Below are positions 35,890-53,040 of a stretch of DNA of 54,841 bases, one piece after another (within the stretch, counting starts at the first letter, position 1; the number at the start of each line of letters is the position of its first letter). The notes under the pieces were generated by a model. The model did not search any database. It was not told the origin of the DNA and saw nothing but the letters and a program-made list of their open reading frames with translations. A program made the position numbers and the translations under genes. The DNA lies in IMG/VR virus record IMGVR_UViG_3300021085_000040, positions 1 through 54,841 of that record; one strand, given 5' to 3'. This DNA comes from a virus.

Positions 35890-35915
35890 ATACATACATA
35901 ATGAAGGAGTATTCT

Positions 35916-36263
35916 ATGGACGAAAGACTCGAGAAGGCATTAGACTTTAGTAACTATGCTTTAACGATTAACAATCAAAAGAGAAATATCAGGAACAGAG
36001 TAGCACAACTACAAATTGTACATCACTTAGGTGGTGTGTTTATTGCTAATCACGAAACAATTGCTTTTGTAAAAACATTAATAGATCTAAAACACAAAAG
36101 TTCTGTTGTTATTGATAGTAAAAATAATCCTATTACAGTAAAAAGTTTAAAAGAATTACTAGAAAAATTAGTAGATGCATATACAAGTGCTACTACAGAA
36201 TTTGATGTTGAAAATGAAAAGATAAAAAAATCACGCAACATTAAAAAAATAATGGATTGGTAA
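35916..36263 (+). CDS. Small helical hypothetical protein, first gene of the accessory cassette
   Basis: 115 residues starting MDERLEKALDFSNYAL. I choose 35916 over the in-frame ATG at 35901 because AAGGAG lies 6 nt before it and nothing resembling a binding site precedes 35901. The protein is helical and charged, ending in a lysine-rich segment (KIKKSRNIKKIMDW). No function is recognised. Its stop overlaps the next ATG (TAATG). Confidence 0.75.
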   Translation: MDERLEKALDFSNYALTINNQKRNIRNRVAQLQIVHHLGGVFIANHETIAFVKTLIDLKHKSSVVIDSKNNPITVKSLKELLEKLVDAYTSATTEFDVENEKIKKSRNIKKIMDW

Positions 36264-37156
36264 TGCTAGAAGTTCAAGCACAAAAAGGCGTATGCTTCTT
36301 TGCTTACAATAATGATCAATTAGATTATGTAAAGATGGCAATTGTTGCCGCTAGATATGTTAAGAAGAATTTAAAACTTCCAGTGTGTTTAATCACTGAC
36401 GAAGGAAGTGAAAGCTGGCTTGAAGAAAGTCATCCTAAAAAACTTATTAAAGAAACATTTGATTATATTATAATTACTAACGACGAAATGAAAGACAACC
36501 GCAGGCGACACTATGATAGTCCATGGACACAGTTTGCTGCACAGTTTAGTAACAGTAACAAACATAAAATATTTCAATACAGCCCATTTGAGCAAACACT
36601 ATTACTAGATATAGATTATATAGTAAAAACAGATACGTTATTAAAATACTTTGATAATGACTATCCTGTGTGTATGTTTGATAGAGCTACGACACTTAGA
36701 AACGAATTGCCTGCTTTACAAGAAAGATTTTTATATGATGCAGGAATTAAAATGTGGTGGAGTACAGTTATATACTTTGACCGCAGTGACTTTAGTAAAA
36801 TGTTTTTTGATGGATGGGCTCATGTAGCTGAGAACTATGATTTCTATCAGTACTTGTATAACTTTCCAAGTAAATTATTCCGTACAGATTATTGTGTAAG
36901 TATTGCAATACATATACTAGCTGGTATGCAAGATGAACAATCATTAATAGGAAACTTTGATAACACTGCATTAGTAAACATGAGTCAGAAGGATGATATC
37001 ATTGAAGCTAAAAATGATAACGAATGGATAATGCTTTCACATGATCAGAAAGAGGTATGGAAAAATATTTTAGTTAACACAAGCAATCAAGACATACATG
37101 TTATGAATAAGCGAGCATTTGATAGAGTTATACCAGATTTAATGGAGACGCTATGA
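36263..37156 (+). CDS. Glycosyltransferase-like protein (GT-A, DxD)
   Basis: 297 residues from the ATG at 36263. The N-terminal GVCFFAYNN strand, LPVCLITDEGSE and TLLLDIDYIV with a D116-x-D118 motif form the nucleotide-sugar and metal-binding layout of GT-A glycosyltransferases, and DYCVSIAIHI later fits an acceptor-side helix. It would transfer a sugar from a nucleotide-sugar donor; the acceptor is unknown. It is the first of several such genes in the cassette, overlaps the next gene by an ATGA, and has no membrane segment, so it should be cytoplasmic. Confidence 0.75.
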   Translation: MLEVQAQKGVCFFAYNNDQLDYVKMAIVAARYVKKNLKLPVCLITDEGSESWLEESHPKKLIKETFDYIIITNDEMKDNRRRHYDSPWTQFAAQFSNSNKHKIFQYSPFEQTLLLDIDYIVKTDTLLKYFDNDYPVCMFDRATTLRNELPALQERFLYDAGIKMWWSTVIYFDRSDFSKMFFDGWAHVAENYDFYQYLYNFPSKLFRTDYCVSIAIHILAGMQDEQSLIGNFDNTALVNMSQKDDIIEAKNDNEWIMLSHDQKEVWKNILVNTSNQDIHVMNKRAFDRVIPDLMETL

Positions 37157-38004
37157 ATAAAGAAAACCGAGGATATGTAATATTAGCAATGCAAGACTTT
37201 GAGTATGAGCAAGCAACTGCACTTGCATATAGTATTAAACTACATAACAAAGACGCCAGTGTTACACTAGTGACTAATTATGTTGATCGTATACCAAAAC
37301 ATTTTGAAGAAGTATTTGACTACTTAGTAGACATGCCTTATGGATCAAGCGACATTACTAGAGTAAATGATTGGCAACTGTATTGGTCAACACCATACGT
37401 TCATAATATTGTTATTGACTGTGCAAGCCTTGTAAAAGAAAACCACGACAGTATATGGGAATACCTAGAAGATCATTATGACATTTACTTTTTTAATCAG
37501 TGCGATAACTTTAGAGGAATGCCTTTAAAAAATAAAACATTTGAATTACTAAAAGAAGAATACAAACTTAATCCAGTATACTCTCATATGTTTTATTTTA
37601 AGCACGATGCAGAAACATCACTTGCGTTTTTTAAACTAGCAGATGTGTTTATGCGAAACTGGAGAGATGTGTTTAATCATTATTTTTCTAAAGCACATAC
37701 TCCATCTTCATATGATAGTAATATTATGTACAGTTTACTAAACACAATAGTATTATTTGAATATCCTTCATTGCATGAAAATATTATAAACACAATTAAT
37801 ATGCCTGGTACATTAGCATCTGGTAATATTGGACAATGGAACAAATGGACAGATAGATTAAATGTATGGAATAGTGAACATGCAAAAGTTAAAATTCAAA
37901 ACTATGCAGTTGCTACTAATCTATATTATGGAGAACAAGAGTTTTTAACAGAAGATATTTTTAATGGACACCGAGATACTTACAGAGCAACAGCAAAGCG
38001 TTGA
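37153..38004 (+). CDS. Glycosyltransferase-like protein lacking the DxD motif
   Basis: 283 residues. It follows the same plan as the preceding gene (GYVILAMQDFEYEQATALAYSIKLHN, then VTLVTNYVDRIP and HNIVIDCASLVKEN), but the DxD position reads DCA, so metal-dependent activity may be lost. It may be a partner subunit or a diverged duplicate. It starts with an ATGA overlap and its end overlaps the next gene by 41 nt. Confidence 0.65.
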   Translation: MNKENRGYVILAMQDFEYEQATALAYSIKLHNKDASVTLVTNYVDRIPKHFEEVFDYLVDMPYGSSDITRVNDWQLYWSTPYVHNIVIDCASLVKENHDSIWEYLEDHYDIYFFNQCDNFRGMPLKNKTFELLKEEYKLNPVYSHMFYFKHDAETSLAFFKLADVFMRNWRDVFNHYFSKAHTPSSYDSNIMYSLLNTIVLFEYPSLHENIINTINMPGTLASGNIGQWNKWTDRLNVWNSEHAKVKIQNYAVATNLYYGEQEFLTEDIFNGHRDTYRATAKR

Positions 38005-38941
38005 TCGTACTTACTTTATAGTATTCGATACTAATGGTAAGATACGTAAGATCAATAGCTCACCCGGCGAGCTAAAAGATGAAAGTTTAACTCAGATTGA
38101 AACTACTAATCCTATTTGTAAACAACTTATAAAAGGTAATGCTAGTTTAAAGAAGTATGGAGTTATATGGGATATTGTTAACGAAAAGTGGGAAATTGAT
38201 AGAACTGATACTAGGTTAACATTAAAAACAATAGCCACTAGTAAAATTGTACAATTTGATCATAACATAGATAAAAAGTCTGCAGAAATATTTGTTTCTA
38301 TATACACAAGTGATAATACAGTAGTAGTGTATGCAAACAAAAATAGAATTAAAGGCATGAAAAATTTAACTGATATACAAGAAATATCAACAAATAAAAC
38401 AGATATACTAGATATATTTCTTACAAAGAAAAACGATCCAGACTATTTACTTGCAATACTTAAATTAGATCCACTTACATTGTTTGTAAAAGGATCACAA
38501 GTAATAAATCTTGACACTAATATTATTGAGCATGTTGATTGGAATAACATGAGCATGTATACAAAACCAATATTTAATAATTATGGTTGTACTTTGATTG
38601 GGCAAAAATATAAAGAGGCAGGAGACGTAGCAAATACAGTTCTCCAATCACAAAATGCCCAAGATAAAGACATCATAAATATTAACGTAGTAGATAATGT
38701 ACTATACGCAAAGAGCCATTTGGCCAGTGATAGAGATCATTATTTTGAAGATTATCGTTATCTAAAAGTTCTTGTTTGCGACAACAGTCCAGATAAGTTA
38801 GCAGGAGCATTTGAATTACCAGTTGATGTTCTACTAAGTAATGAAAACTATAATACCAAAATAGACTTTAAATGGCCAAAGAAACCGTTGTTATTATATA
38901 AGAATAATTACATAACAATTCGTATAAAGGAGATTACATGA
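37964..38941 (+). CDS. Hypothetical protein of the accessory cassette
   Basis: 325 residues, not recognised. It starts MDTEILTEQQQSVDRTYFIVFD and is beta-rich with repeated short strands (IVQFDHNIDKK, AEIFVSIYT, VVYANKNRIKG). The 41-nt overlap with the preceding gene and the ATGA overlap with the next one mark it as an operon member. Composition resembles virion structural proteins more than enzymes, so it may be the modified substrate or a virion component; this is inference. Confidence 0.7.
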   Translation: MDTEILTEQQQSVDRTYFIVFDTNGKIRKINSSPGELKDESLTQIETTNPICKQLIKGNASLKKYGVIWDIVNEKWEIDRTDTRLTLKTIATSKIVQFDHNIDKKSAEIFVSIYTSDNTVVVYANKNRIKGMKNLTDIQEISTNKTDILDIFLTKKNDPDYLLAILKLDPLTLFVKGSQVINLDTNIIEHVDWNNMSMYTKPIFNNYGCTLIGQKYKEAGDVANTVLQSQNAQDKDIININVVDNVLYAKSHLASDRDHYFEDYRYLKVLVCDNSPDKLAGAFELPVDVLLSNENYNTKIDFKWPKKPLLLYKNNYITIRIKEIT

Positions 38942-39699
38942 ATACATTAGATCCAGTTGTTTGGGAGAACCGAAGAACAACAAGACTGTTTTCAGAAGAA
39001 AACAAAACAATACCCGATGAAGATTTAAAATACCTAGCAACAGTAATTAACAATATTCCTAGTCAATGTAGTATTAAATCTCATTTTTGGCTATACTTAG
39101 GGCAAAGCGAAGAAGATATGAATATTCGCAAATGGATGGCTGACAATATTTATTGGACGCCAGATGATACAGATGAATCTGCAAATCCAAAAAGAGAAAC
39201 TATGCTTGGTATTATACAAGCACCTGCTATTCTAACGTGTGTTAGAACTAGTAGTCCGTGGGCTAATCCAGAAACAGGAAAGACTAAAGACGATCACGAA
39301 CAGTTAGCAGACAGAAGTGAAGGATTTTTTGCAGGAGCAATTTTAGCCACATTATTAAATATGGGTTATAAAGTTGCAACATTTGGATGTACTGCCGGAG
39401 CATCTGCTCTTGGAAGACAAAACAAACTGGCTATCTATGATGAATATACTAGAATAATAAAAGAAAAGCACGGCAACGAATTACAAGAAATGATTGATAA
39501 GTTTCCAGGACCGTCAGGTAATTGGAAAGATATTTCATTCTTTCCTGGCGTTACGCAATGCTTTGGAGCAGAATCAACAGACGAAACAGTAGCATGGAAT
39601 GGAAAATATGATACATGGACTGAACCAAATGGCAAAGAATATAATTTTGTAAACGGAATAAAAACTAGAACACCAGTAGATACCTGTGTTGGATTTTAA
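38938..39699 (+). CDS. Nitroreductase-like flavoprotein
   Basis: 253 residues. ENRRTTRLFSEE (residues 10-21) is the R-x-S/T-x-R-x-F start of nitroreductase-family FMN enzymes, and the GFFAGAILATLLNMGYKVATFGC block matches their second conserved region. The family reduces nitro groups, quinones or enones with NAD(P)H, and related members act in tailoring pathways. AAAGGAG precedes the ATGA-overlapping start. In a cassette with radical SAM proteins it could provide a redox step; substrate unknown. Confidence 0.7.
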   Translation: MNTLDPVVWENRRTTRLFSEENKTIPDEDLKYLATVINNIPSQCSIKSHFWLYLGQSEEDMNIRKWMADNIYWTPDDTDESANPKRETMLGIIQAPAILTCVRTSSPWANPETGKTKDDHEQLADRSEGFFAGAILATLLNMGYKVATFGCTAGASALGRQNKLAIYDEYTRIIKEKHGNELQEMIDKFPGPSGNWKDISFFPGVTQCFGAESTDETVAWNGKYDTWTEPNGKEYNFVNGIKTRTPVDTCVGF

Positions 39700-39713
39700 G
39701 GAGAGGAGATATT

Positions 39714-40700
39714 ATGAGCAGTATGCAAAGCATAAACGAATTTGATATAGTGTTTATCAGCTATGATGAACCTAATGCAGATGAAAACTATAATGATTTA
39801 ATTAATAAGGCACCCTGGGCCAAGCGAAGCCACGGAGTGTTTGGAAGTGATGCGGCGCACAAAGCTGCTGCAGACTTGGCAGAAACAGATAGGTTTATTA
39901 CTATTGATGCAGACAACATAGTCAGAGAAGAGTTCTTTGGTGTTGAAGTAGACATGAGTAAAATTAGAAGTACAGATGTTATCAGTTGGGCAGGAAAGAA
40001 TACAGTAAACGGATTAGTGTACGGCAACGGTGGAATCAAATGTTGGCCCAAACCAGTAGTGTACGGAATGGAAACACATGAGAATGCACCAGCAGGAGAT
40101 AAGCGAGCTCAAGTTGACTTTTGTTGGAACATTAACTATGTGCAAATGAATAACATATATTGTGATGTAATGAACAATGCTAGTCCACTACAGGCTTGGC
40201 GTGCAGGTTTTCGTGAAGGAGTTAAGATGGGATTGGTTGGCGGTGACGTTATTGATCCATTAAAACTAAAAGAAAAAGTACATGACAAGAATTATAAAAG
40301 ACTACTTACATGGATGAGTGTAGGTGATGATACTGAAAATGGACTATGGGCAATTTATGGATCAAGACTTGGATGTCATATGACAAACATTACTAGAGGA
40401 AATTGGGATTGGAAAAATGTTAGAGACTTTGATTATCTAAGTAATATGTTCCTCAAAGAAGTATTACCAAACTTTGAACAGTCTTCTGATCAACTATGTC
40501 CACGTACTGGAATGAAATGGAACTATAATACGCTACAAGAAGAAAGCGACAGACTTGGTTATGAATTACGCAAAGAACTAGATTTAGAAATTGCCGACTT
40601 AGGCAAAGAAGGTTCACGCTTCTTTAAAGAAGTTTATATTAACCCAAGCCGTATGGGAGCACAAATCAGGGAAGACCAGGTAGAAGATACACTAGAATGA
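39714..40700 (+). CDS. Glycosyltransferase-like protein (DAD motif)
   Basis: 328 residues. DIVFISYDEPNADENY (11-26), AHK (48-50) and FITIDADN with D65-A66-D67 form a GT-A-like N-terminal domain seen in marine T4-like phages. The C-terminal half is helical and W-rich (NWDWKNVRDFDYLSNMFLKEVLP). The strongest ribosome binding site of the cassette (GGAGAGGAG) precedes it, so it may be translated more than its neighbours. Overlaps the first radical SAM gene by ATGA. Confidence 0.7.
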   Translation: MSSMQSINEFDIVFISYDEPNADENYNDLINKAPWAKRSHGVFGSDAAHKAAADLAETDRFITIDADNIVREEFFGVEVDMSKIRSTDVISWAGKNTVNGLVYGNGGIKCWPKPVVYGMETHENAPAGDKRAQVDFCWNINYVQMNNIYCDVMNNASPLQAWRAGFREGVKMGLVGGDVIDPLKLKEKVHDKNYKRLLTWMSVGDDTENGLWAIYGSRLGCHMTNITRGNWDWKNVRDFDYLSNMFLKEVLPNFEQSSDQLCPRTGMKWNYNTLQEESDRLGYELRKELDLEIADLGKEGSRFFKEVYINPSRMGAQIREDQVEDTLE

Positions 40701-42271
40701 AAAAAGTAGATGACATGAATTGGGACCTTAATCACGAAGGCAACATAAAAACCAATCATGCAAATTTTAAAAATGTTAAAGAACTACTTGATAGTAAAGG
40801 ACCTGGGTTCTGTTTGGCTAAATGGAATCAAGTTACAATGCATTTGGGTACGGGTGTTACACACAGTTGTCATCACCCAGCCGTACATAAAATTCCACTA
40901 GAAGAACTTAAAGACAATCCAAGTGCATTACATAATACAAAATTTAAAAAAGAACAACGTAAGACAATGCTTAACGGCGGCAGGCCAAAGGAATGTGATT
41001 ATTGTTGGCGAATAGAAGATAATAACACAGGCGAGTTTAGTGATAGAGTATTTAAAAGTTTAGAACCTTGGGCATTAAAACATAATGATATAATCAAAGA
41101 TATGGACGGCGATGAAAATGTATTGCCTACATATATTGAGGTTAGTTTCAGTAACGTATGTAATATGAAGTGTACTTACTGTGGGCCAGAGGCTAGTAGC
41201 AAGTGGTACGAAGATATAAAACAAAATGGTCCAATAAAATTATTGGAAGGTACAGATGATGAGTATTGGGCACAAGGTTGGCAACAAGACTTAGAAGTAT
41301 TTAAGAATAGAGAATACAATCCATATGTAGAAGCATTTTGGGAATGGTGGCCCGAGCTTAGTAAAAACTTAAAAGTGTTCCGTATAACAGGTGGCGAGCC
41401 TTTAATGAGCAAAGACACATTTAAAGTATTAGAAGACCTAATTGAAAACCCAAGACCTGATCTTGAGATTAGTATTAATACTAATTTAAGTGTACCAGAT
41501 AAACTTTGGAATAAGTTTATTGGTTTAGCAATACAACTTAAAGATAGTAACAACATTAAAAATCTAACAGTATATACAAGTGTTGAAGGTTGGGGTGAAA
41601 GAGCCGAGTATGCTCGTACAGGATTAAACTTTGAATTATTTTTACAGAGGTATGAACAATTAATTAGCATGGGTAACATACGTGCAGTATTAATGTCCAC
41701 TTATAATATGTTTAGTATAACAAGTTTTACTCGTTTACTAGAATGGCAATATGATTTAAGATTAAAATATAATAAAAATCCAGTAGTGCTTAATTATGCA
41801 GAGACAGGATTTAGAAGTCCTGGCCATAGATTACCTGAGACAGATATAAATTGGAAACAAGAACTTGCTACAGTATGTATTGATGTTCCGTACCTAAGAC
41901 ACCCAACCTTTTTAGATTGTCGTAATAGTACACACCAATTAGCAGAAGAATATATGTTAGCATCTTTAGACTATATGGCTAGTAGAACTACATATCCAGG
42001 TTGGACAGTACACAAAGGCTTTGAGCAAAACGAGATAGATAAGTTTAAACGTATTGTATTTCATAGACTATACTTTAACAAAAAGAACAGTGATGGGACA
42101 CCCGACTATCATAACAGACGAGATTTAGATTTGAATAGATCTCAATTTTATGAGTTTATACAAAAAATAGATCAAAGAAACAACACAGACTTTCTATCTA
42201 CGTTTCCCGAAATGCAAGAATTCTATAACGAATGCGGCGAAGCAAGAGATAGGATTCTAAATGGAAGATAG
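40697..42271 (+). CDS. Radical SAM protein 1 with N-terminal auxiliary cluster motif
   Basis: 524 residues. The radical SAM CxxxCxxC is C155-x3-C159-x2-C162 (CNMKCTYC) followed by FRITGGEPL for SAM binding. An N-terminal module has C39, C58, C100 and C103 with the spacing FC..., GxxxxxC and ECDYCW, resembling a twitch/SPASM-like extra Fe-S site placed before the core. Such enzymes modify peptides or sugars by radical chemistry. It starts with an ATGA overlap and ends overlapping radical SAM 2 by 11 nt. The substrate is unknown. Confidence 0.88.
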   Translation: MKKVDDMNWDLNHEGNIKTNHANFKNVKELLDSKGPGFCLAKWNQVTMHLGTGVTHSCHHPAVHKIPLEELKDNPSALHNTKFKKEQRKTMLNGGRPKECDYCWRIEDNNTGEFSDRVFKSLEPWALKHNDIIKDMDGDENVLPTYIEVSFSNVCNMKCTYCGPEASSKWYEDIKQNGPIKLLEGTDDEYWAQGWQQDLEVFKNREYNPYVEAFWEWWPELSKNLKVFRITGGEPLMSKDTFKVLEDLIENPRPDLEISINTNLSVPDKLWNKFIGLAIQLKDSNNIKNLTVYTSVEGWGERAEYARTGLNFELFLQRYEQLISMGNIRAVLMSTYNMFSITSFTRLLEWQYDLRLKYNKNPVVLNYAETGFRSPGHRLPETDINWKQELATVCIDVPYLRHPTFLDCRNSTHQLAEEYMLASLDYMASRTTYPGWTVHKGFEQNEIDKFKRIVFHRLYFNKKNSDGTPDYHNRRDLDLNRSQFYEFIQKIDQRNNTDFLSTFPEMQEFYNECGEARDRILNGR

Positions 42272-43580
42272 AGAATTACTTGAGAAACTTAACAAAGTTG
42301 GCAAAGGTTTTTGTGCAGCTAAATGGTATAACAGTACTATATGGTTAAGTAATGGCAGAACTAGTAGCTGTCATCATCCTCCTGCACATAGCATTAATCC
42401 AGATGACGTTATAAAAAATCCTAGTGCATTACACAATACAGAATATAAAAAGTCGGTACGTAAAGAAATGCTTAATGGTGAACGTCCTGCTGAGTGTGGT
42501 TATTGTTGGAAAGTAGAAGATGCGGCTCCTAATGCAGTTAGTGATAGAGTATACAAGAGTAACATATACACACCAAGTGATATATCAAAGTTAGCCAAAC
42601 AATCACCTGACATTGATGTTAACCCTAAAACACTAGAGATAAGTTTTGATAATGTATGTGACTACCAGTGTACATATTGTAATGCAGAGTTTAGTACAAC
42701 ATGGAATGCGGATATAAATCGCAACGGTGGATATGATTTAAGTACTAACGGTGGTGCTACATATAATCAACCTTATGAGTTTGATACTAACATAGTTAAA
42801 AATCCCACAGTGTACACTGATGCTTTTCAGCGTTGGTATGATAGTGGACTTAAAGATGACTTAACTGAACTACGCATTACTGGAGGCGAACCAACTATGA
42901 GTCCGAGCTTCTGGCGTTTTATTAATAACATAGACAATGCAAACTATCAATTTAGTGTTAACACTAACTTGGGTATGCGAACCGATGTTATGGATAAACT
43001 AATAGCGGCCAGTCATAAGTTTAAAAGATTTGATTTATATACTAGTGTAGAAAGTTCTCCTAGTATAGCTGAATTTGTACGTACTGGATTTAAATGGGAT
43101 ACATGGACTAATAACTTAGATCATTTTATAAGAGAAGGCAAGTACACAAGCATTAACATTATGATGACTATTAGTTGTCTTAGTCTGCCTGGAGTAGTTG
43201 GATTCTTAGAAGAGTATAAAAGTTTAAAAAAATATTATCCTAATGTGCATATGACTATCAGTGCAAACATATTACGCTTTCCTAGTTTTCAATCCATAAC
43301 TGTACTAAGTAACGAATTAAAAAAACATTATCATAGTGAATTAACCGAGTGGCTAAATACAAACGATAATGTTCTTGCAGACTTTGAAATACAACATTTA
43401 AATCGTTTATTGGATTATCTACACAATGTTGATATTAGTTACGAAGATACAGACACATTAAAAAGTAAACACAGTGACTTACATAAATTTGTCACACAGT
43501 ATGCAGATCGCCGGGGTGTAGACATCCATAGTATATACCATAAGGAATTTGTCAATTGGTTCAACAAATTAAAAAAATAA
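42261..43580 (+). CDS. Radical SAM protein 2, paralogue of the preceding one
   Basis: 439 residues. It repeats the plan of its neighbour: N-terminal C18, C37, C79 and C82 (FCAAKW, SSCHHP, ECGYCW), then CDYQCTYC at 133-140 and LRITGGEPTMS. The shared SxxCHHP and ALHNTxxKKxxRKxMLNGxRPxEC blocks show the two arose by duplication, yet the C-terminal thirds differ, suggesting different substrates or a heteromeric pair. It overlaps the SGNH gene by 25 nt. Confidence 0.88.
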   Translation: MEDRELLEKLNKVGKGFCAAKWYNSTIWLSNGRTSSCHHPPAHSINPDDVIKNPSALHNTEYKKSVRKEMLNGERPAECGYCWKVEDAAPNAVSDRVYKSNIYTPSDISKLAKQSPDIDVNPKTLEISFDNVCDYQCTYCNAEFSTTWNADINRNGGYDLSTNGGATYNQPYEFDTNIVKNPTVYTDAFQRWYDSGLKDDLTELRITGGEPTMSPSFWRFINNIDNANYQFSVNTNLGMRTDVMDKLIAASHKFKRFDLYTSVESSPSIAEFVRTGFKWDTWTNNLDHFIREGKYTSINIMMTISCLSLPGVVGFLEEYKSLKKYYPNVHMTISANILRFPSFQSITVLSNELKKHYHSELTEWLNTNDNVLADFEIQHLNRLLDYLHNVDISYEDTDTLKSKHSDLHKFVTQYADRRGVDIHSIYHKEFVNWFNKLKK

Positions 43581-44461
43581 TATCGTTTGGAGATAGTTTT
43601 GCAGCAGGCGACGAACTACTACAAGATGATCACCGAGACGAAATAGAAAAAATCATTAATAGTACTAGTGATATAATAAGACACGGCCATGGTGGTTACT
43701 TTGGAAAATTATCTCCAGGTAAAAAATGTAAGCCAGAGAAATTTATAGAATTAACAGAGTCTGTAACTAAGTATATAGAACAACAGTACGACACACCCAA
43801 GCAAATTAGAGATTTACAATTTAGTCATACATACGCTAGTATACTTGGTACTACATTAAATGTACCAGTAATAAACTATGCTCGTGGTGGTAATAGCCCT
43901 GTGGGTATATACAACAATATAATGCGAAGCAAAGTTGATCTAGACAAACATACACTAGTGTTAATAGGCAGTACATTTCTTGGACGACATACTCAAATGG
44001 ATACTGATAAGCATCGTCAGAGTGATATTATCGAACGTCATGTATATGAATATAAAACATTATTACCACGTTGGCAAGGCAAAGAGAATAATGATTACTT
44101 GCGTTATCGTGAACTAGAAGTACAATACGGTGACGACACTTACTTTAGGTATATACAATACCTAGCACTACAACGTAGTTTACAATTGTATTTGTCTAAC
44201 ATACCGCATGTGTTTTTAGATAACTCAAACCACAAGAATATTTCTACCAGCCTGTTTAAGTTAGATGAAACTAAACAAAGCGATGTAGACTATGTATTAT
44301 CTGAACTACAAGATATATACCAATGTAACAATATGAAAAGTAGTGCTACTGCTATGGAACAATTAGATATACCACATAGTCAATACTTTGGACACTTTAG
44401 TCGTGCAGTACATAAACACTATGCAGACACTATAAAAAATTATCTAGGACTAACAACATGA
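43556..44461 (+). CDS. SGNH/GDSL-hydrolase-like protein
   Basis: 301 residues from a TTG start that has AAGGA 9 nt upstream; no ATG is available before the conserved block. IISFGDSFAAGDE gives the block I GDS serine (S14), INYARGGNS matches block II with Gly, and HFSRAVHKHYAD near the C-terminus could supply the block V histidine. The family removes acetyl or acyl groups from sugars and lipids. In this cassette it may trim an O-acetyl group; the substrate is inference. Confidence 0.65.
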   Translation: MVQQIKKIISFGDSFAAGDELLQDDHRDEIEKIINSTSDIIRHGHGGYFGKLSPGKKCKPEKFIELTESVTKYIEQQYDTPKQIRDLQFSHTYASILGTTLNVPVINYARGGNSPVGIYNNIMRSKVDLDKHTLVLIGSTFLGRHTQMDTDKHRQSDIIERHVYEYKTLLPRWQGKENNDYLRYRELEVQYGDDTYFRYIQYLALQRSLQLYLSNIPHVFLDNSNHKNISTSLFKLDETKQSDVDYVLSELQDIYQCNNMKSSATAMEQLDIPHSQYFGHFSRAVHKHYADTIKNYLGLTT

Positions 44462-46182: not shown

Positions 46183-46778
46183 ACGCACATCAACACATAG
46201 CAGATCGTATACAAAAAACTGAACTAGATACTCGTGGTGGTTATCCTTGGATGACTGTAACAGATTTTTTACCTGCAGACTTGTATGAGAATATAAGAAT
46301 TAATCAAGACTGTCAGCAACTATTAAATGCACACGATGATCCAAATATAGTAAAAGCATTGTACAATAAGTTCAGTGACTATCCTATACGTCAAGATAAT
46401 ATACAAAGTATATATGCATTTTGGCAAAGCACAGGTGCTGGTTATAGTTTAAAGCCACATGAAGATAGTTGGCCGCGTGTGTTTACTATAGTGTATTACT
46501 TTCCAGATGATGATACTTATCCTGAGGCAGGCACTGCCATATATGAAGTGGACGAAGATAAACGTACATACAACACAGTAGCTACATCACCATACTTGCC
46601 AAACACTGCAACTATAATTGCTCCTGATACTGGACGCACTTGGCACGGAGTAGATCTTATACAACGTCAAGTAAGTAGACAAAGTGCAGTGTTAGTATTC
46701 AGTGCAGAAGAATGGACACCAGCTCAATTACATTATGCTGATTGGAAATCTGGAAGGACAGTTAACTATGCAAGGTAA
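46179..46778 (+). CDS. 2OG-Fe(II) oxygenase
   Basis: 199 residues from a GTG start overlapping the upstream stop. The iron-binding triad is visible as H94-x-D96 (KPHEDSW) and H156 (RTWHGV), with R167 as the likely 2-oxoglutarate contact, in the prolyl-4-hydroxylase-like order. These enzymes hydroxylate proteins or small molecules and are frequent in marine T4-like phages. A hydroxylation step would suit a tailoring pathway for a polymer; the substrate is not shown. Confidence 0.82.
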   Translation: MNAHQHIADRIQKTELDTRGGYPWMTVTDFLPADLYENIRINQDCQQLLNAHDDPNIVKALYNKFSDYPIRQDNIQSIYAFWQSTGAGYSLKPHEDSWPRVFTIVYYFPDDDTYPEAGTAIYEVDEDKRTYNTVATSPYLPNTATIIAPDTGRTWHGVDLIQRQVSRQSAVLVFSAEEWTPAQLHYADWKSGRTVNYAR

Positions 46779-47262
46779 CTATCAAAAATATAATATACTA
46801 GGCGAGAGCTATGACTTGTTAACCATTGGCGATTGGAAACGTGTAGTAGTTGTAAGTGATTTAAATAATTATCATCTTAACGCTGACTATGTAAAAAATG
46901 TTAAACTGTCTGATGAGGTTATCAATAGTTTAATGACAAACAACCACGAGTATAATATATGGTGTACTGTTGACTATTGGCAACCACCTTTTAATCCTTG
47001 GCAACCTTGGCCAAATAATTTATATATTCATAATAGCATAGAAAGATTTGATAGTACAACATTATCTAAAGATATTCCTAACAGTAATTTAATTAGCACA
47101 CACTTAGATAGAGATCCTATACGTGCTGACAATCAAGGCGATGGTAGTATTGGATTTGGCTTTGCTGGCGGAGATATCTTTTACGGGTATGGCAATTTAG
47201 ATAAGTCTGGGTTTGTTCAAGACTTTAGTGGAGCCGGAAGAGGAAGTGTGTATGTTAGATAA
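46768..47262 (+). CDS. Hypothetical protein, Trp/Pro-rich centre
   Basis: 164 residues from the ATG at 46768, chosen because GGAAGGA lies 10 nt upstream and the ATG is 11 nt inside the oxygenase gene, in keeping with the cassette style. It has NYHLNADYVKNVKLSDEV, then WCTVDYWQPPFNPWQPWP and NNLYIH, and a glycine-rich C-terminus (GFGFAGGDIFYGYGN). Not recognised. The aromatic-proline stretch suggests a binding or structural role. Confidence 0.65.
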   Translation: MQGNYQKYNILGESYDLLTIGDWKRVVVVSDLNNYHLNADYVKNVKLSDEVINSLMTNNHEYNIWCTVDYWQPPFNPWQPWPNNLYIHNSIERFDSTTLSKDIPNSNLISTHLDRDPIRADNQGDGSIGFGFAGGDIFYGYGNLDKSGFVQDFSGAGRGSVYVR

Positions 47263-47941
47263 ACTATTAGTAATAAGCAATGCACGTATGGGTAGTACAT
47301 ATGTATACAATACATTTCGTGAGTTTGATTCACGTAGCAAAGACACAACAGAAAATCATTTATTAACTAATGAACCATTTGACAAAAACGACTTTGATAC
47401 TGTATACAAATATACAAAGGAACAACCTAACATTGTAAGTAAAATACATGCACGTCATATTCAATCGCTAGGAAAAGACTTTAAAAAATACTTTGATTTA
47501 TTTGATAAAACTTTATTATTGTTACGCAAAGACTTGTTTGCATCAGCTACTAGTCTTTCAATTAGCGTAGCAAAAGAACAATGGGGCGTACATTATCCCA
47601 TCAACGATAATGTTATTAAATTAGATTTAGATCAATTACAAAAACATATTAGACAACAATGGCAAGACATTAGATATTTAAGAAGCATAGCTCGTGATTA
47701 TAATATTAATCACAGCATATGGTTAGAAGATTATCCTACTGATATTAGTTTGTGGCATATATTTAATAACAAAGAAACTATGCCTAATACTGGGCTAAGT
47801 TTCCCTACATATAAAAGTCCACAGAAGTCAAGCACAATAAGTAATTACGATTATTGTTACGAATTATACCTTAGTGTAATTCAAGACTTAGCACCAATAC
47901 ATGGATTAACTATAGAAAATAATTTAATTAAGGAACTATAA
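47252..47941 (+). CDS. Sulfotransferase-like protein 1
   Basis: 229 residues from the ATG at 47252 (AGAGGAAG 6-13 nt upstream). LVISNARMGSTYVYN (6-20) resembles the PAPS-binding loop of sulfotransferases (R-x-G-S-T), and LLLLRKDLFASATSLSISVA resembles the 3'-phosphate-binding RxDxxxxxxS helix. Such proteins transfer sulfate from PAPS to sugars or other acceptors; no PAPS-making gene is in the window, so the host would supply it. It overlaps both neighbours. Confidence 0.65.
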   Translation: MLDKLLVISNARMGSTYVYNTFREFDSRSKDTTENHLLTNEPFDKNDFDTVYKYTKEQPNIVSKIHARHIQSLGKDFKKYFDLFDKTLLLLRKDLFASATSLSISVAKEQWGVHYPINDNVIKLDLDQLQKHIRQQWQDIRYLRSIARDYNINHSIWLEDYPTDISLWHIFNNKETMPNTGLSFPTYKSPQKSSTISNYDYCYELYLSVIQDLAPIHGLTIENNLIKEL

Positions 47942-48612
47942 TGAGAATTAGATTAATAACAATGCCACGTACAAAAGCTACATACTTAATGAAAGCATTA
48001 ATATCAGCTAACAATCCATCGCAATTAGATATTAACAGTGACTTATACAATGAACCATATAACAACGATAGGCCCAATCCAATCGCAGCCACTGAATGGA
48101 TGAAGTCTGATACTAACGCAGTGATTAAACATCACATACGACATTTGGTTGCCAACGATGTATATAACAGTAAACAGGCTTTCCAACAAGAATGCGAATT
48201 AGATTGGCTTACAGTTGTTTTACTAAGACGTGATTTATTTGCTGCGGCTACTAGTTATGCACGTAGTAGAATAAGTAACGAGTGGCATAGTTATACTAAC
48301 GAGAGTGTTTATATACCTCCTGAGTTTTTTAATAAATGTTTAATAGCTTTATGGGGTAGTGTAACACATATAAAGAACAATGTTAATAACTTAACGTATG
48401 ATAAAATAATATACAGTGATGACTTTACTGGTAATCCATCAAACGATATAAAAGAAATAATACCCAACTATTCTAAAGAAATATATACTGACAGTAAACC
48501 AAGACCAGAAAATACTATAACCAACATCAACGAGTTACGAGAGTATTCTCAACAAATAACATTACCGGACAATGGTGTTATGATAGATAAAGATTTAATT
48601 ATTACAATATAA
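47941..48612 (+). CDS. Sulfotransferase-like protein 2, paralogue of the preceding one
   Basis: 223 residues. LITMPRTKATYLMKALI at the N-terminus and VVLLRRDLFAAATSYARSRI at the equivalent place show the same fold and a common origin with its neighbour (both share RxDLFAxATS). The phosphate loop is R-T-K-A-T rather than R-M-G-S-T, so PAPS binding could be altered. Starts with TAATG. The 3' end overlaps the convergent minus-strand gene by 11 nt. Confidence 0.6.
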   Translation: MRIRLITMPRTKATYLMKALISANNPSQLDINSDLYNEPYNNDRPNPIAATEWMKSDTNAVIKHHIRHLVANDVYNSKQAFQQECELDWLTVVLLRRDLFAAATSYARSRISNEWHSYTNESVYIPPEFFNKCLIALWGSVTHIKNNVNNLTYDKIIYSDDFTGNPSNDIKEIIPNYSKEIYTDSKPRPENTITNINELREYSQQITLPDNGVMIDKDLIITI

Positions 48613-49507
48613 TCTTTTTTTCGTTAACAAATGTATTTTGAATTTTAAGATAATCATTATAGTTCAATGCATTTAAAGTTAAATCAGCATACGGTCGAAC
48701 TATAGTAGATCCAATTTTAAGATGAGGCAACATAGTTGTACCGTTGCGTCTTAACACTGCTCCCAAATTCATATGTATGTGTCTTAGTGATCCGCCTGAT
48801 AATACTTTATCTAATCTATTTTTATTAGGGTGTACACTGTGAATCATTTTTAAATATTCAGCAGCCATCAAGTCCATAGCAATACTGCTACCCCATAACA
48901 TATAATCATGAACAGAATCTGAAAAGGGACTATGAGTCAATCCCCATGCCTGTGTATTAGTAACCATCCAGTTGTTACAAGAATTTGCTATAGGATCTCT
49001 GTCTTGTGGTTGTCCATATGTTAGTTTGTTTACACGATCGACTATGCGATTTACCCATGTTCCATTGTCTCCTCGATAATGTGACCTAGGGTTTGGTATT
49101 ACATCATAACGAGTTAACACTACAACATCATAATTAAAATTATTCTGAGCTTCGTGATTTTGTTTAAGCATAATAGCGTCTGCCATACTTTTCTCAGTCC
49201 TGCCTCCCCAGCTATGTAACTTGACAGTATCACTGTCCAATATTTCCACTGCACAAGGATTTAGCATGCTTAACTTATTCAGTAAAGTGTTACGTTCTTG
49301 GTTAACTAAGTCTACTTTCTCATTAGTAGTTCGGTATTCTTCAAATGTTCTAGAGCTACAAAAGAAATCTACTTGTATTGATTTACTAGTAAAATGATCT
49401 TTTAGATACGGCAACACATAGTCGCCTGTTCTATATAATCCATATAAGCATACGGCTACACGCTTTACACCTTTTGGATATAGTAGAACGTTGTCAGGAT
49501 AGTCCAT
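48602..49507 (-). CDS. Glycosyltransferase-like protein on the opposite strand
   Basis: 301 residues from the ATG at 49507 (MDYPDNVLLYPKG), chosen over an ATG 24 nt further up because it overlaps the upstream stop as TAATG. VAVCLYGLYRTGDYVLPYLKDHF at the N-terminus, VDFFCSSR, then YDVVVLTRYDVIPN are the core of a phage/virus family of glycosyltransferase-like proteins. No clear DxD. It is convergent with the sulfotransferase genes and read with the gene upstream of it from a late promoter. Confidence 0.6.
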   Translation of the reverse strand: MDYPDNVLLYPKGVKRVAVCLYGLYRTGDYVLPYLKDHFTSKSIQVDFFCSSRTFEEYRTTNEKVDLVNQERNTLLNKLSMLNPCAVEILDSDTVKLHSWGGRTEKSMADAIMLKQNHEAQNNFNYDVVVLTRYDVIPNPRSHYRGDNGTWVNRIVDRVNKLTYGQPQDRDPIANSCNNWMVTNTQAWGLTHSPFSDSVHDYMLWGSSIAMDLMAAEYLKMIHSVHPNKNRLDKVLSGGSLRHIHMNLGAVLRRNGTTMLPHLKIGSTIVRPYADLTLNALNYNDYLKIQNTFVNEKKIIL

Positions 49508-49983
49508 TACGTTAACTCCAAACTTATACAACGTATATTTAAATTAAACAATAGCACATGGAATATATTAGTTAATGAGTTTGCTAGATCATCTTTGGAT
49601 AATGTATGATAAAAATGCATACTATCGTGTAATGATTTCCATTGCAAATTAACTTTATTAAACACATTCCAATTACAGAAGTAATGATCGTAGTGCATAT
49701 TTTTATTAGGAAAGTATATTACATCATAAGCAGTATCATATATAGTGCATTGTTCTATATCAAATATTGTATTACCCATAACAAATACAACACTATCTTC
49801 GTCACTACATCCACGCATGCCATGATCATTGTACATATTCATGCTGTGTTGCCAGCGTGAACGGAATACAGAAATCATTTCTCTGTAGTCGGCGTTTGGG
49901 TTATGTGGATAGTTGCTTCTATAGAGATTTAAATTATCACTATGAGTTAGTGTTTTGTTATCAAGTCGGCTTATAAATTGCAT
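49507..49983 (-). CDS. Hypothetical protein with leaderless start
   Basis: 158 residues, beginning MQFISRLDNKTLTHSDNLNL. It has TIYDTAYDVIYFPNKNMHYDHYFCNWNVFNKV in the centre; rich in aromatic and His/Asn residues. Not recognised. The late promoter TATAAATA on the minus strand (49989-49996) puts +1 exactly on its ATG, so it would be made from a leaderless message. It is coupled to the glycosyltransferase-like gene by TAATG. Confidence 0.65.
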   Translation of the reverse strand: MQFISRLDNKTLTHSDNLNLYRSNYPHNPNADYREMISVFRSRWQHSMNMYNDHGMRGCSDEDSVVFVMGNTIFDIEQCTIYDTAYDVIYFPNKNMHYDHYFCNWNVFNKVNLQWKSLHDSMHFYHTLSKDDLANSLTNIFHVLLFNLNIRCISLELT

Positions 49984-49988
49984 GCTAC

Positions 49989-50004: not shown

Positions 50005-50009
50005 TAAGT

Positions 50010-50600
50010 ATGTTAATTATTTTTGATTTCGATGGAACACTTGCGAACTGTAAAGAGTTACATCAAATTGCATTTCGTAATGCAGTACAAGAACTTTGTC
50101 CTAATGCAGATTTTAAAAACGAAGACGTAGAAGGTAGACCAACTAGAGAGAAGATACGTATACTACACACAATGGGTTATGAGTTTAACGGAGATAAGTT
50201 AAACGATATTAAACAAGCATACACGCAAAAGCATTTAGAAGAATATATAAAGTATAATAAAGATTTATTACACACAATGCTAAAGTTAAAAGAAAGATAT
50301 AAACTATGTGTAGCCAGTAATGCCACAGAATTATTTGTACTTAGAAGTTTAAATATTATGCAAATGTATAAAGAAACAGGAAAGCAAGTGTTTGCTAAAA
50401 TTAATACTGCTACTGACTTTCCTGCTAAACCAGATACTACTACGTTTATAGATTGTATGAGATGGACAAACAGTACACCAGAAGATACTATTATATTTGA
50501 AGATAGTGAAGTTGGAATACAATGTGCTTTAAGCACAGGTGCTAGAGTTATCAGAGTAACAGATGTGAATCACACTATAGAGGAAATGAAAAAACTATGA
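50010..50600 (+). CDS. HAD-superfamily phosphatase
   Basis: 196 residues. IIFDFDGT gives the D6-x-D8 catalytic motif, CVASNAT motif II, FPAKPDTT motif III lysine, and IIFEDSEVG motif IV, with a helical cap between residues 15 and 90: the phosphoglycolate-phosphatase-like subfamily I layout. It would remove a phosphate from a sugar or similar small molecule. Its ATG coincides with a predicted late start and has no ribosome binding site. ATGA overlap with the nucleotidyltransferase suggests joint action on one substrate. Confidence 0.85.
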   Translation: MLIIFDFDGTLANCKELHQIAFRNAVQELCPNADFKNEDVEGRPTREKIRILHTMGYEFNGDKLNDIKQAYTQKHLEEYIKYNKDLLHTMLKLKERYKLCVASNATELFVLRSLNIMQMYKETGKQVFAKINTATDFPAKPDTTTFIDCMRWTNSTPEDTIIFEDSEVGIQCALSTGARVIRVTDVNHTIEEMKKL

Positions 50601-51313
50601 AATTAATTATGCCAATGGCAGGACAAGGAAGTCGCTTTGACGAAGTGGGTTATGATTTACCCAAGCCAATGATACCAGTAGGAGATGTTCCTATGTTTGT
50701 ACACGTAGAACGTTGTATAGGTTTGGAGTTTGATGAACGTATATTTATTGTACGCAAAGAACATGATCTTAGATCAAGAGTTCTCGAATGGTATCCTAAC
50801 GCACACATAATTGAGTTAGACTACTTGACAGAAGGTACTGCATGTACTATACTAACAGCAAGAGAACACTATGAAGATGGTAGCAGTATATTTGTTAGCA
50901 ACTGTGATCAACACATTGAATGGGATGTAGAGCATGCAGAAAGTATTATGAACAATCCCTATAACAGTGGAATGATTCCAAACTTTTACTGCGACGATGG
51001 ATCAAAGAAATGGAGTTATGCAATGGTAGATGATAGACAAAACATCAAACGTGTAGCTGAAAAAGATCCCATAAGCAATTGGGCAACTGTAGGTTACTAC
51101 TGGTGGAGAGACGGAACTCAGTTTATTGAAAGTGCTGATCGTATGATACAAGCCAATGACAGAGTTAATAACGAATTTTATACATGTCCAACTTATAACT
51201 ACACAGTGCAACTAGAAGGAATTGGTAACATCAAACACATGGAAGTAGACGCTATGCAAGGTCTAGGAACTCCAGAAGATTTAAAAGAATATGAACAACA
51301 GTACTCATCTTGA
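50597..51313 (+). CDS. Sugar-phosphate nucleotidyltransferase
   Basis: 238 residues. MPMAGQGSRFDEVGYDLPKPMIPV has the GxGxR loop (9-13) and catalytic-type K23-P24 of NDP-sugar pyrophosphorylases; IFVSNCDQHI supplies the metal-binding D104, and VAEKDPISNWATVGYYWW the sugar-binding region. It should activate a sugar (or similar) phosphate with an NTP to make a donor for the cassette's glycosyltransferases. Starts by ATGA overlap with the HAD gene. Confidence 0.85.
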   Translation: MKLIMPMAGQGSRFDEVGYDLPKPMIPVGDVPMFVHVERCIGLEFDERIFIVRKEHDLRSRVLEWYPNAHIIELDYLTEGTACTILTAREHYEDGSSIFVSNCDQHIEWDVEHAESIMNNPYNSGMIPNFYCDDGSKKWSYAMVDDRQNIKRVAEKDPISNWATVGYYWWRDGTQFIESADRMIQANDRVNNEFYTCPTYNYTVQLEGIGNIKHMEVDAMQGLGTPEDLKEYEQQYSS

Positions 51314-52526
51314 GAAATTAAAACTACCTAGTTCGTTTTGTTTTGCTCCATACACTAATTTAGATTTGGATCAAGATGGAACATGGCTTCCGTGTTTTAG
51401 AAGTGAAGAAGCACAAGGAAGCTGGAAAGAATATGATATTACAGAGACTTTTAATTCAAGCAACATTCAAAAAGTTAGAACAGATTTGTGGAAGGGCAAG
51501 TGGCCAAAGAACTGTGAACAATGCCAAGCACGTGAACAAGAAGGTATTAAAAGTACAAGACAAGAATACAACGAACATCTATTAGAACTTGCAGACAACT
51601 TAGACTTTGTAAAAGATATTAAAAAAGCACCACAGTATAGTGGAATAGAAAACATTCATACATTGGAAATACGCCCACATAACTTGTGTAACCTAGCATG
51701 TGGACATTGTGATCCACACAGTTCAAGTAGATGGGTTAAAATTAAATCAAATGAAACAAAGGATCAAGACTTTACAAAACATTTAATTGACAATCCCGAG
51801 TACTTAAAAAAGTTTTATACAAAAGCAGGTAACCTAAAGACTGTACATTTTACAGGAGGCGAGCCTTTGATTTATGCATCCTCTCACAAAGAATGGCTAA
51901 ACGGAATACAAAACAAACACAACATAGAACTTAGATATCATTCTAATCTTAATCATAATCAACTAAGCACATATCAACACAAATGGGATAAGTTTAAACA
52001 CGTAAAGTTTTTTGCAAGCATTGATACAAGTCAACGTTACTATGAGTTTTTTAGATTTGGTAGCAAATGGGATAGAGTAGATTATAATATTGATTATTTG
52101 TTAAAACAAAAGCACGAAGTAGTAGGTACTATTACAGTAAACTTCTTTACAATGCTTGATCTTGTGGGTCTTGTAAAGTACTTGGTAGCAAAGAATTTAC
52201 AGATTCATGTAGCATTTGTAGACGCACCGGGCTCTTTGAATATAGCATACATGAGCAATGAACAAAAGAATAAAGCAATAGAACAAATTGCACAAGCAAA
52301 ATTAGAAATAAACTACAAAGAAGAATGGAAAGAACAACGAGGACATATTGCATTAGATAAGATTACTGAATTTATCAAAGGTACATGGGAAGTAGATAAA
52401 GAAAAAACCAGAGGCGACTTAACATGGTGCAGTGATAAACAACATCCAAAGCAACTTGCTAAGTTAGATTACTTGGATAAGACTTATCAGAAACATGGAT
52501 TCAAGTCTAGTTGGACTGAATTATAA
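51291..52526 (+). CDS. Radical SAM protein 3 with N-terminal auxiliary cluster motif
   Basis: 411 residues. The core CxxxCxxC is C133-x3-C137-x2-C140 (CNLACGHC), followed by HFTGGEPL. N-terminal cysteines C17, C35, C75 and C78 repeat the spacing of the other two radical SAM proteins (FCFAPY, DGTWLPC, CEQC). It overlaps the nucleotidyltransferase by 23 nt. It is more diverged than the other two and lies in a separate late unit with the HAD and nucleotidyltransferase genes, so it may act on a different substrate. Confidence 0.87.
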   Translation: MNNSTHLEKLKLPSSFCFAPYTNLDLDQDGTWLPCFRSEEAQGSWKEYDITETFNSSNIQKVRTDLWKGKWPKNCEQCQAREQEGIKSTRQEYNEHLLELADNLDFVKDIKKAPQYSGIENIHTLEIRPHNLCNLACGHCDPHSSSRWVKIKSNETKDQDFTKHLIDNPEYLKKFYTKAGNLKTVHFTGGEPLIYASSHKEWLNGIQNKHNIELRYHSNLNHNQLSTYQHKWDKFKHVKFFASIDTSQRYYEFFRFGSKWDRVDYNIDYLLKQKHEVVGTITVNFFTMLDLVGLVKYLVAKNLQIHVAFVDAPGSLNIAYMSNEQKNKAIEQIAQAKLEINYKEEWKEQRGHIALDKITEFIKGTWEVDKEKTRGDLTWCSDKQHPKQLAKLDYLDKTYQKHGFKSSWTEL

Positions 52527-52532
52527 CAGTTA

Positions 52533-52540
52533 GATAAATA
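52533..52540 (+). promoter_or_regulatory. T4-type late promoter for the GDPD-like gene
   Basis: GATAAATA; the expected start near 52546 gives a 15-nt leader with AGGA before the ATG at 52561. Confidence 0.7.
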
Positions 52541-52560
52541 TTTTAAACAGGACTTTTACA

Positions 52561-53040
52561 ATGACACAATTTATAGCACACAGAGGAAACCTAACAGGAC
52601 CCGAACCCACATTCGAGAACCGTATAGAATACCTATTGCATGCTTATGATGTGTGTGGTGCAGTGGAAGTAGATATACAAACCCATCGTGGACAATTGTA
52701 TTTCGGACATGATGATCCACAACAACCGGTATCGCTTGAATTGATAATGCAAGACAATTGGTTTTGTCATGCAAAGGATCTAGAATCGTTAAGTAAACTA
52801 TTAGAATTGGGTGCTCATACATTTTGGCATCAACAAGATACAGTAACAATTACCAGTAGAGGATACATATGGTGTTACCCAGATGTGTATCTCATTGACA
52901 AACGTGCTATATGGTTAGACTTCGAAGACAAGTTTACTGACTTAGAACTAGTAGGTGGTTGGGGTTTATGCAGTGATAGATACCCAATGATAAGACCTGT
53001 ACGCAGTCCTAAGCCTCCTATTAGTCCGTATACTAATTAA
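52561..53040 (+). CDS. Short glycerophosphodiester phosphodiesterase-like protein
   Basis: 159 residues. FIAHRGN (H7, R8), AVEVDIQ (E36, D38) and LYFGHDDP (H50, D51) are the metal and catalytic residues of the GDPD family in their normal order. Family members are usually 230 residues or more; the second half of the barrel is short here, so the protein may be a minimal or altered version. The gene has its own late promoter. Its stop overlaps the convergent small membrane gene by 8 nt. Substrate (lipid or teichoic-acid-like diester) is unknown. Confidence 0.75.
   Translation: MTQFIAHRGNLTGPEPTFENRIEYLLHAYDVCGAVEVDIQTHRGQLYFGHDDPQQPVSLELIMQDNWFCHAKDLESLSKLLELGAHTFWHQQDTVTITSRGYIWCYPDVYLIDKRAIWLDFEDKFTDLELVGGWGLCSDRYPMIRPVRSPKPPISPYTN

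Follow-up and report, generated by a model that had tools for sequence, protein, structure and literature searches.

The island at positions 35901-53040 of the window (the whole 54,841-nucleotide stretch of viral DNA that was analysed) consists of a conserved sugar-transfer block followed by exchangeable cargo; its 20 genes are real, but do not form one pathway. The recurring unit covers 35901-42271 only and comprises g01, g02, g03, g04 and g06, with or without an N-twitch radical SAM gene (Table 1). The co-occurring set is limited to these genes and F4, the gene directly upstream. Phage sugar islands are usually viewed as loose collections of auxiliary genes, whereas here one block is fixed. 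Since this block is fixed, adjoins one tail gene and has a putative promoter of its own, the question whether a host or a virion glycan is concerned becomes a small, testable one, involving five genes. Our preferred, still tentative reading is that of a receptor-matching module, in which an adhesin is combined with cytoplasmic enzymes that would remodel the host glycan used as receptor.

Table 1 Features of the island and its upstream flank
Feature	Position	Strand	Description
F4	34528..35853	+	441 aa, tail-side by neighbours, directly 5' of the block; has Tyr-Ala array
Array in F4	35407..35446	+	Tandem TATGCN repeat (TRF), encodes (YA)n
Putative promoter	35861..35889	+	Sigma70-type, TTGACA-17-TATTAT, exactly between F4 and g01
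g01	35901..36263	+	120-aa small protein
g02	36257..37156	+	GT8-type glycosyltransferase; conserved start at 36263
g03	37153..38004	+	GT8-type paralogue; profile match to glycogenin, E 1.7e-5
g04	37964..38941	+	Fast-evolving protein; usually sole ORF between g03 and g06
g05	38938..39699	+	Nitroreductase-like variable insert; Pfam E 0.009, below cut-off
g06	39714..40700	+	Conserved divergent GT-A-like enzyme
g07	40697..42271	+	N-twitch radical SAM enzyme 1; NF033640 311 bits
g08	42261..43580	+	N-twitch radical SAM enzyme 2; NF033640 278 bits
g09	43556..44461	+	SGNH-like hydrolase or acyltransferase; conserved GDSF and GGHYS-type motifs
g10	44458..46182	+	Methyltransferase fused to uncharacterised C-terminal part; Methyltransf_25 E 3.6e-8
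g11	46179..46778	+	2OG-Fe(II) oxygenase-like; Pfam E 0.0019, below cut-off
g12	46702..47262	+	Orphan, glycine-rich C-terminus
g13	47213..47941	+	P-loop-like protein, possible sulfotransferase; R-x-G-S-T motif only
g14	47941..48612	+	Paralogue of g13
g15	48602..49531	-	Family often in tandem pairs among relatives
g16	49507..49983	-	No recognised family
g17	50010..50600	+	HAD phosphatase-like; HAD_2 E 1.8e-23
g18	50597..51313	+	Sugar-phosphate nucleotidyltransferase; NTP_transferase E 1.4e-8; phrog_3980 E 1e-52
g19	51291..52526	+	N-twitch radical SAM enzyme 3; NF033640 251 bits; SPASM E 2e-6
g20	52561..53040	+	GDPD-like by motif; phrog_34507 (unknown function) E 2.8e-15

Eighteen of the 20 ORFs lie on the plus strand and two on the minus strand, and most junctions show overlaps or gaps of less than 50 nt. 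This agrees with the sequence-only reading, which had described about 20 mostly overlapping genes; the start it gave, 35916, is the conserved start of g01 (MDER, in an alignment of 25). The core gene order was found again in more than 100 fetched contigs, so the arrangement is more than chance. Among relatives found through g06 alone, g02/g03 are located upstream of g06 in 69 of 72 loci, and F4 is directly upstream of g01 in 61/66 g06-seeded loci. All relatives with a g06 identity of 45-99% and enough upstream sequence harbour g01 (100/100), and an N-twitch radical SAM gene is present with the core block in about 60-100% of relatives.

The cargo genes (g05 and g09-g20, except the radical SAM gene) are missing from most close relatives, which carry other sugar-type genes instead, and nearly all of them are lacking in more distant relatives. 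In the 16 nearest relatives whose downstream sequence extends over 6 kb or more, g10, g11, g12 and g16 were each found in none, g18 and g20 each in one, g17 in two and g09 in four; g05, counted over 20 near relatives, was found in one. A single 20-gene pathway is rejected on these co-occurrence counts: the complete toolkit proposed earlier did not survive the check in relatives. Its more general proposal, glycan tailoring, is upheld by a core with three glycosyltransferase-type proteins and by the replacement genes of the relatives, many of which encode sugar-nucleotide or sugar-decorating enzymes, including nucleotidyltransferase, epimerase, RmlC and UDP-glucose dehydrogenase.

The enzyme types named in that reading were confirmed in part. 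The HAD, sugar nucleotidyltransferase and methyltransferase domains passed Pfam cut-offs, the matches to nitroreductase and 2OG oxygenase stayed below threshold, and the SGNH assignment is based on conserved motifs. The sulfotransferase assignments of g13/g14 could not be confirmed: these proteins have a P-loop-like motif only and gave no Pfam match, no sulfotransferase profile match and nothing usable in a PDB-profile search. The same applies to GDPD for g20, for which only a PHROG of unknown function was matched, and to g15, described as glycosyltransferase-like, for which the PDB-profile search yielded nothing usable. Relatives of g20 often occur near those of g17/g18. Viral relatives of g10 were found at 3 loci, none of g12 among the relatives' loci and viral ORFs, and none of g16 by blastp at E<=0.01; the true start of g12 is likely later than the ORF start.

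F4 itself has no PHROG match and no database match. The adjoining gene at 33586-34527 matches tail-fibre PHROGs and a 3416-aa protein upstream of the island matches a virion structural PHROG; it is because of its neighbours only that F4 is called tail-side. In relatives the F4 array, where there is one, is of the (YG)n, (YGG)n or else the (YSG)n type, mostly at a relative position of 0.6-0.8. Such tyrosine-(Gly/Ala/Ser) arrays occur in 34 of 106 distinct F4 proteins, compared to 0/2372 other viral ORFs. In an unbiased DNA scan 89 of 115 (YGG)n arrays fell in F4, and the glycosyltransferase block followed 3' of all 54 F4 (YGG)n arrays having enough downstream DNA. (YGG)n is a far more specific marker than (YG)n, which was rejected as such: most of its matches are in ORFs other than F4, generally small ones, and the block accompanied 0/51 of these. 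A link between tyrosine arrays and radical SAM genes was also rejected (p = 0.56).

The site between F4 and g01 resembles a sigma70-type promoter. A promoter score of at least 11/12 was obtained before g01 in 40 of 80 relatives, and before the tail genes F7, F5 and F4 in 0-1. Its own promoter would make the block independent of transcription of the tail genes. The T4 late promoter TATAAATA was dropped as a marker; the window has only 3 such sites, and 88 F4-g01 gaps together have 6. The sequence-only reading mentioned neither this promoter nor the tyrosine arrays, nor the absence of membrane proteins described below.

The glycosyltransferase assignments differ in strength. The AlphaFold model of g02 (pLDDT 93) matches GlyE, UGGT, glycogenin and LgtC in Foldseek (E 6e-7 to 2e-5), and its DxD motif (D116/D118) is invariant; by predicted fold and motif, g02 fits GT8, sharing 10-14% identity with LgtC, GlyE and glycogenin. 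Unlike these enzymes, g03 has a degenerate DxD motif in this phage (DCA), in which the second Asp is lost. For g06 (model pLDDT 90.5) the top Foldseek matches are nearly all GT-A enzymes (E 2e-3), so that its GT-A-like assignment, by fold, is weaker than the GT8 assignment of g02; it has viral homologues at E 1e-13. The earlier glycosyltransferase calls for g02 and g03 are thus confirmed, and that for g06 more weakly. g04 proteins of relatives cluster near 200, 330 and 450 aa, and belong to one superfamily according to HHalign (99 sequences, joined by 14 more with a probability of 98.6% and by 4 with one of 96.9%); a PDB profile search with g04 gave nothing usable.

The three radical SAM genes reported earlier are certain. 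All three proteins exceed the curated cut-off of 170 bits of NF033640 (N_Twi_rSAM), a generic family name without an assigned reaction. g07 has the CX3CX2C motif and four N-terminal cysteines; in the family, C155, C159, C162, C39, C100 and C103 are invariant and C58 is at least 90% conserved (66 sequences). In relatives of this virus the number of N-twitch radical SAM genes reaches 16, and as many as 7 paralogues were seen near a single locus. In the family tree viral members are interleaved with mostly Bdellovibrionota members, and bacterial neighbourhoods are mixed: GT2, GDSL and epimerase genes occur, none being dominant. In viral loci a glycosyltransferase gene is located immediately 5' of the first radical SAM gene in 62 of 77 cases, in two different architectures. 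This gives these uncharacterised enzymes a consistent viral context, which points to sugar chemistry.

No strong hydrophobic segment was detected in 18 of the 20 cassette proteins, the two marginal ones lying inside radical SAM proteins. No cassette protein is convincingly membrane-spanning and the enzymes appear soluble, as judged from their sequences. Proteins with at least three hydrophobic segments were found in 0/91 recurring cargo families, compared to 21/232 bacterial neighbours.

In the receptor-matching reading, F4 would be a tail-tip adhesin with tyrosine-rich variable loops, and g01, the GT8 pair g02/g03, g04, the GT-A-like g06 and the following N-twitch radical SAM gene would form a separate unit transcribed from a host-type sigma70 promoter. 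The soluble enzymes may add sugars, and then modify them radically, on an LPS-core-like or lipid-linked acceptor glycan, which is assembled at the cytoplasmic face of the envelope and which the host then exports. With the receptor changed, the infected cell and its debris would be protected from attachment by sibling phages and by competitors. The swappable cargo (methyl-, acyl-, oxygenase, nucleotidyltransferase, further radical SAM) would suit this modification to whichever glycan the present host has. We infer the adhesin role of F4, the host glycan as acceptor and the purpose of the module. In favour of this reading, F4 and the block are inherited together, and g02/g03 belong to GT8, the family of the LPS-core enzyme LgtC. 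The separate promoter, the glycosyltransferase gene before radical SAM, the sugar-type cargo and the lack of membrane proteins are also counted for it, as are published analogues for which an altered host surface has been proposed (PMC7029224, PMC7824862). However, classical phage seroconversion is brought about by membrane proteins (GtrA/B, Oac, Wzy). GtrABC, Oac and Wzy are polytopic and act on lipid-linked O-antigen, and no proteins of this kind are predicted in the island, which speaks against this reading. A position next to a tail gene would be expected just as much if the virion were glycosylated.

The main rival is thus virion glycosylation, which we consider somewhat less likely than the host reading. 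The block would glycosylate F4, perhaps on its tyrosine arrays in the manner of glycogenin, or g04, and the radical SAM and other enzymes would tailor the glycan, so that the tail tip is shielded or tuned. The constant linkage to F4, the confinement of the arrays to F4, the glycogenin-like GT8 pair and the apparent solubility of all enzymes are in agreement with this. So is the glycosyltransferase of mycobacteriophage Che8, known from virion glycosylation, which is found among the g06 matches (E 9e-4), as a distant fold match only; the likeness is by fold alone, and in contrast to Che8 the island enzymes stand behind a tail gene under their own promoter. Against it speak this separation from the tail genes' promoter, the 72 of 106 distinct F4 proteins that lack an array while the block is still linked to F4, and a cargo diversity that seems above the needs of a virion glycan. 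Its most specific form, O-glycosylation of the F4 arrays by the GT8 pair and rebuilding of the glycan by the N-twitch radical SAM arrays, is improbable; if true, a virus would here perform radical chemistry on a glycan of its receptor-binding tail tip.

That the phage directs the synthesis of an entire surface polysaccharide of its own, replacing O-antigen or capsule, is very doubtful. The nucleotidyltransferase, epimerase, RmlC and UDP-glucose dehydrogenase among the cargo would suit it, but the reading is already weakened by the lack, in the cassette and recurring cargo, of a flippase, polymerase, exporter or lipid-carrier enzyme with membrane segments. We give equally little credence to a RiPP-like pathway, in which the N-twitch enzymes would mature a peptide or the F4 tyrosine arrays. 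These enzymes do show a likeness to SPASM/twitch peptide maturases, with scores below threshold, and their paralogues accumulate near one locus. However, a separate small precursor gene would not fit within g01-g20, where the widest gap of the plus-strand run is 47 nt, and the modified peptide considered earlier as a product lacks a precursor gene as well; radical SAM presence is unassociated with the arrays, and it is a glycosyltransferase gene that precedes radical SAM instead. DNA hypermodification by the glycosyltransferases and radical SAM enzymes is hardly credible: phages do glycosylate DNA, but no thymidylate-synthase-type gene, the family of the dNMP hydroxymethylase expected in such a pathway, was found in this virus's 121-kb contig (which may be incomplete) or in 5 of 9 other large contigs, and the island is linked to a tail gene.

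The closest precedents are the host recognition cluster of pelagimyophages and the sugar clusters of cyanophages. For the former, a change of the host surface has been proposed and, as far as the part of the source available goes, it is, like the island, hypervariable and situated amid structural genes, with tail fibres, radical SAM cassettes and glycosyltransferases of the GT8 type (PMC7029224). It sits between VrlC and gp14, and that part of the source describes for it no fixed F4-glycosyltransferase block with its own promoter and no tyrosine arrays (PMC7029224). For the cyanophage clusters (P-SSM2, S-SSM6a) superinfection exclusion has been proposed; like this kind of island they contain epimerases, nucleotidyltransferases, multiple glycosyltransferase families and carbamoyltransferases, whereas radical SAM enzymes are absent from the review (PMC7824862). 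New here are the tyrosine arrays of F4, the promoter-like site between F4 and g01, a cassette in which no protein convincingly spans the membrane, and the radical SAM multiplicity in relatives. A composition check of the DNA gave no indication of recent foreign origin, and g02, g06 and F4 had no match among 50,697 phage records. The virus is an uncultured aquatic jumbo-type phage: among the matches listed, which include no pelagimyophage, its portal is nearest to those of the jumbo phages Phosso, PA5oct and Atu_ph07 (50-55% identity).

The fixed unit of the island is F4-g01-g02-g03-g04-g06, F4 being the tail-side gene just before g01, often followed by a radical SAM gene; all other genes are swapped. 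The sequence-only reading had taken the region for one 17-kb tailoring cassette of about 20 genes. It holds 20 densely packed ORFs (g01-g20; 18 on the plus and 2 on the minus strand), located downstream of tail and baseplate genes. Loci were fetched in two sets, 80 from 273 relatives seeded by radical SAM genes and 80 further loci from at least 596 relatives seeded by g06 only; they are partly non-independent, some contigs being near-copies and a few common to both sets. In the g06 set, g02/g03 were found at most 4 kb upstream of g06 in 69 of 72 loci, and an N-twitch radical SAM gene at most 5 kb downstream in 31 of 54, 22 of these at most 30 nt away. Relatives with 45-55 % g06 identity harbour g01 (44/44), g02 (44/44) and g03 (42/44); the cargo genes g09-g18 and g20 were present in 0 of 32 such relatives. 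Usually one ORF separates g03 and g06; it belongs to a single superfamily whose members measure about 200, 330 or 450 aa. F4 is directly 5' of g01 in 61/66 loci. These counts and this adjacency define the unit. Cargo exchange is shown directly by locus L015, where g01, g02, g06, g17, g18 and g20 are 82-96 % identical to those of the window and the middle differs. Replacement genes in relatives code for RmlC, NAD epimerase, UDP-glucose dehydrogenase, carbamoyltransferase, GT7, GT2 and nucleotidyltransferase-kinase fusions. A single ORF in locus L067 suggests a g17-g18 fusion.

Features of the window and of related loci
Feature	Record	Position	Remark
Cytidylyltransferase-like gene	window	12607-13275	amid structural genes
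HNH endonuclease gene	window	18549-19103	inserted amid baseplate genes
3416-aa structural protein	window	22693-32943	virion structural PHROG match
45-bp tandem repeat	window	32294-32396	inside gene of 3416-aa protein
Gene beside F4	window	33586-34527	matches to tail-fibre PHROGs
F4	window	34528-35853	no PHROG match
TATGCN array encoding (YA)n	window	35407-35446	in F4
Island g01-g20	window	35901-53040	
g03	window	37153-38004	second Asp of DxD gone (DCA); likewise in some relatives
~1.2 kb without convincing ORF	window	53040-54255	3' of island; two divergent sigma70-like sites
Holo-ACP synthase-like ORF	L147 (close relative)	10984-11298	between g06 and radical SAM gene; read by eye
Single ORF	L067	10288-11688	matches g17 (HAD) and g18 (nucleotidyltransferase)
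Radical SAM-rich region	G007 (record of L005)	34894-77153	

The record itself is a virus contig, and the same genes occur at 100 % protein identity on a 121-kb IMG/VR contig. Among the matches listed, its portal is nearest to those of the jumbo phages Phosso, PA5oct and Atu_ph07 (50-55 % identity). Among 50,697 phage records, F4, g02 and g06 had no tblastn match and the radical SAM genes weak matches only.

The labels read from sequence alone for three radical SAM proteins, HAD, nucleotidyltransferase and methyltransferase all scored above curated cut-offs. Nitroreductase and 2OG oxygenase have sub-threshold profile matches, SGNH is assigned by motifs, and sulfotransferase, GDPD and the glycosyltransferase label at 48602 were not confirmed. 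The three radical SAM proteins are members of NF033640, whose CX3CX2C motif and four N-terminal cysteines are conserved (66 sequences). The predicted fold of g02 (pLDDT 93) matches GT8 enzymes, and the g03 profile matches glycogenin (E 1.7e-5); g03 is perhaps a non-catalytic partner of g02. Best PDB matches of the predicted g06 fold (pLDDT 90.5) are nearly all GT-A enzymes, and with E 2e-3 and TM ~0.3 the model carries the label no further than GT-A-like.

The F4-g01 gap is ~60 nt in relatives, and genes within the block g01-g06 overlap or almost do so. Sites of the form TTGACA-(16-18)-TATAAT, counted at 11/12 or better in 80 deduplicated relatives, precede g01 in 40/80 versus 0.6 expected, and the same scan gave 0 or 1 each for the tail genes F7, F5 and F4 and for g02 and g03. 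Given this enrichment, transcription of the block most likely begins at a start of its own. Within the window, one 12/12 site precedes minus-strand genes including SbcD/SbcC, a hint that an early class may be involved.

Y-(G/A/S) arrays, in which the spacing is two or three residues, were found in 34 of 106 distinct F4 proteins across loci, and in 0/2372 other viral and 0/769 bacterial ORFs. A (YGG)n scan of all viral contigs, blind to island genes, gave 115 loci, 89 within F4; the glycosyltransferase block lies downstream of all 54 F4 arrays with enough downstream DNA. (YG)n is a less specific marker, and such arrays also occur in other viral contigs that lack the block, where the ORFs carrying them are mostly small (L227-L346). 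A receptor-binding loop would be the simplest reading of the F4 array, which may also be a glycosylation site.

By hydropathy, none of the 20 island proteins is convincingly membrane-spanning, and two marginal hydrophobic segments are both inside radical SAM proteins. One hydrophobic segment occurs in 4/91 recurring cargo families and three or more in 0/91, compared to 79/232 and 21/232 bacterial neighbours. The acceptors left would therefore be cytoplasmic, either inner-leaflet glycolipids or virion proteins. As a receptor-matching module, the island would encode enzymes remodelling host glycan, a tentative reading, somewhat short of an even chance, drawn from tail-gene linkage, GT8 chemistry, soluble enzymes and the separate promoter. 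Host surface alteration has been proposed for similar phage islands (PMC7029224, PMC7824862). Virion glycosylation by the same enzymes, the main rival, is less likely than not; host-glycan remodelling fits somewhat better, with the promoter, an indirect argument, as main tie-breaker. The scarcity of membrane segments in island and recurring cargo argues against Gtr/Oac/Wzy-type seroconversion and against a self-contained polysaccharide pathway.

In the open-licence papers searched, radical SAM, jumbo phage and glycosyltransferase were nowhere found together. In 62/77 viral loci, which show two architectures, the first radical SAM gene has a glycosyltransferase gene (g06 or GT7) directly 5' of it. 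Large relatives have up to 16 family members above or near cut-off, most within a few tens of kb; the single viral contigs G007 and likewise G006, G008 and G009 each carry ~14-16 N-twitch radical SAM genes, most within ~40 kb. Viral and bacterial members interleave in the tree, whose well-supported branches require at least 13 switches, an approximate number from a quick tree with long branches. Misbinned phage may account for some of the MAG contigs: four carry the whole glycosyltransferase block. The bacterial relatives (L084-L146) are mostly Bdellovibrionota, a possible hint to the hosts of these phages, and have as many as 8 copies at a single locus (L112, L114).
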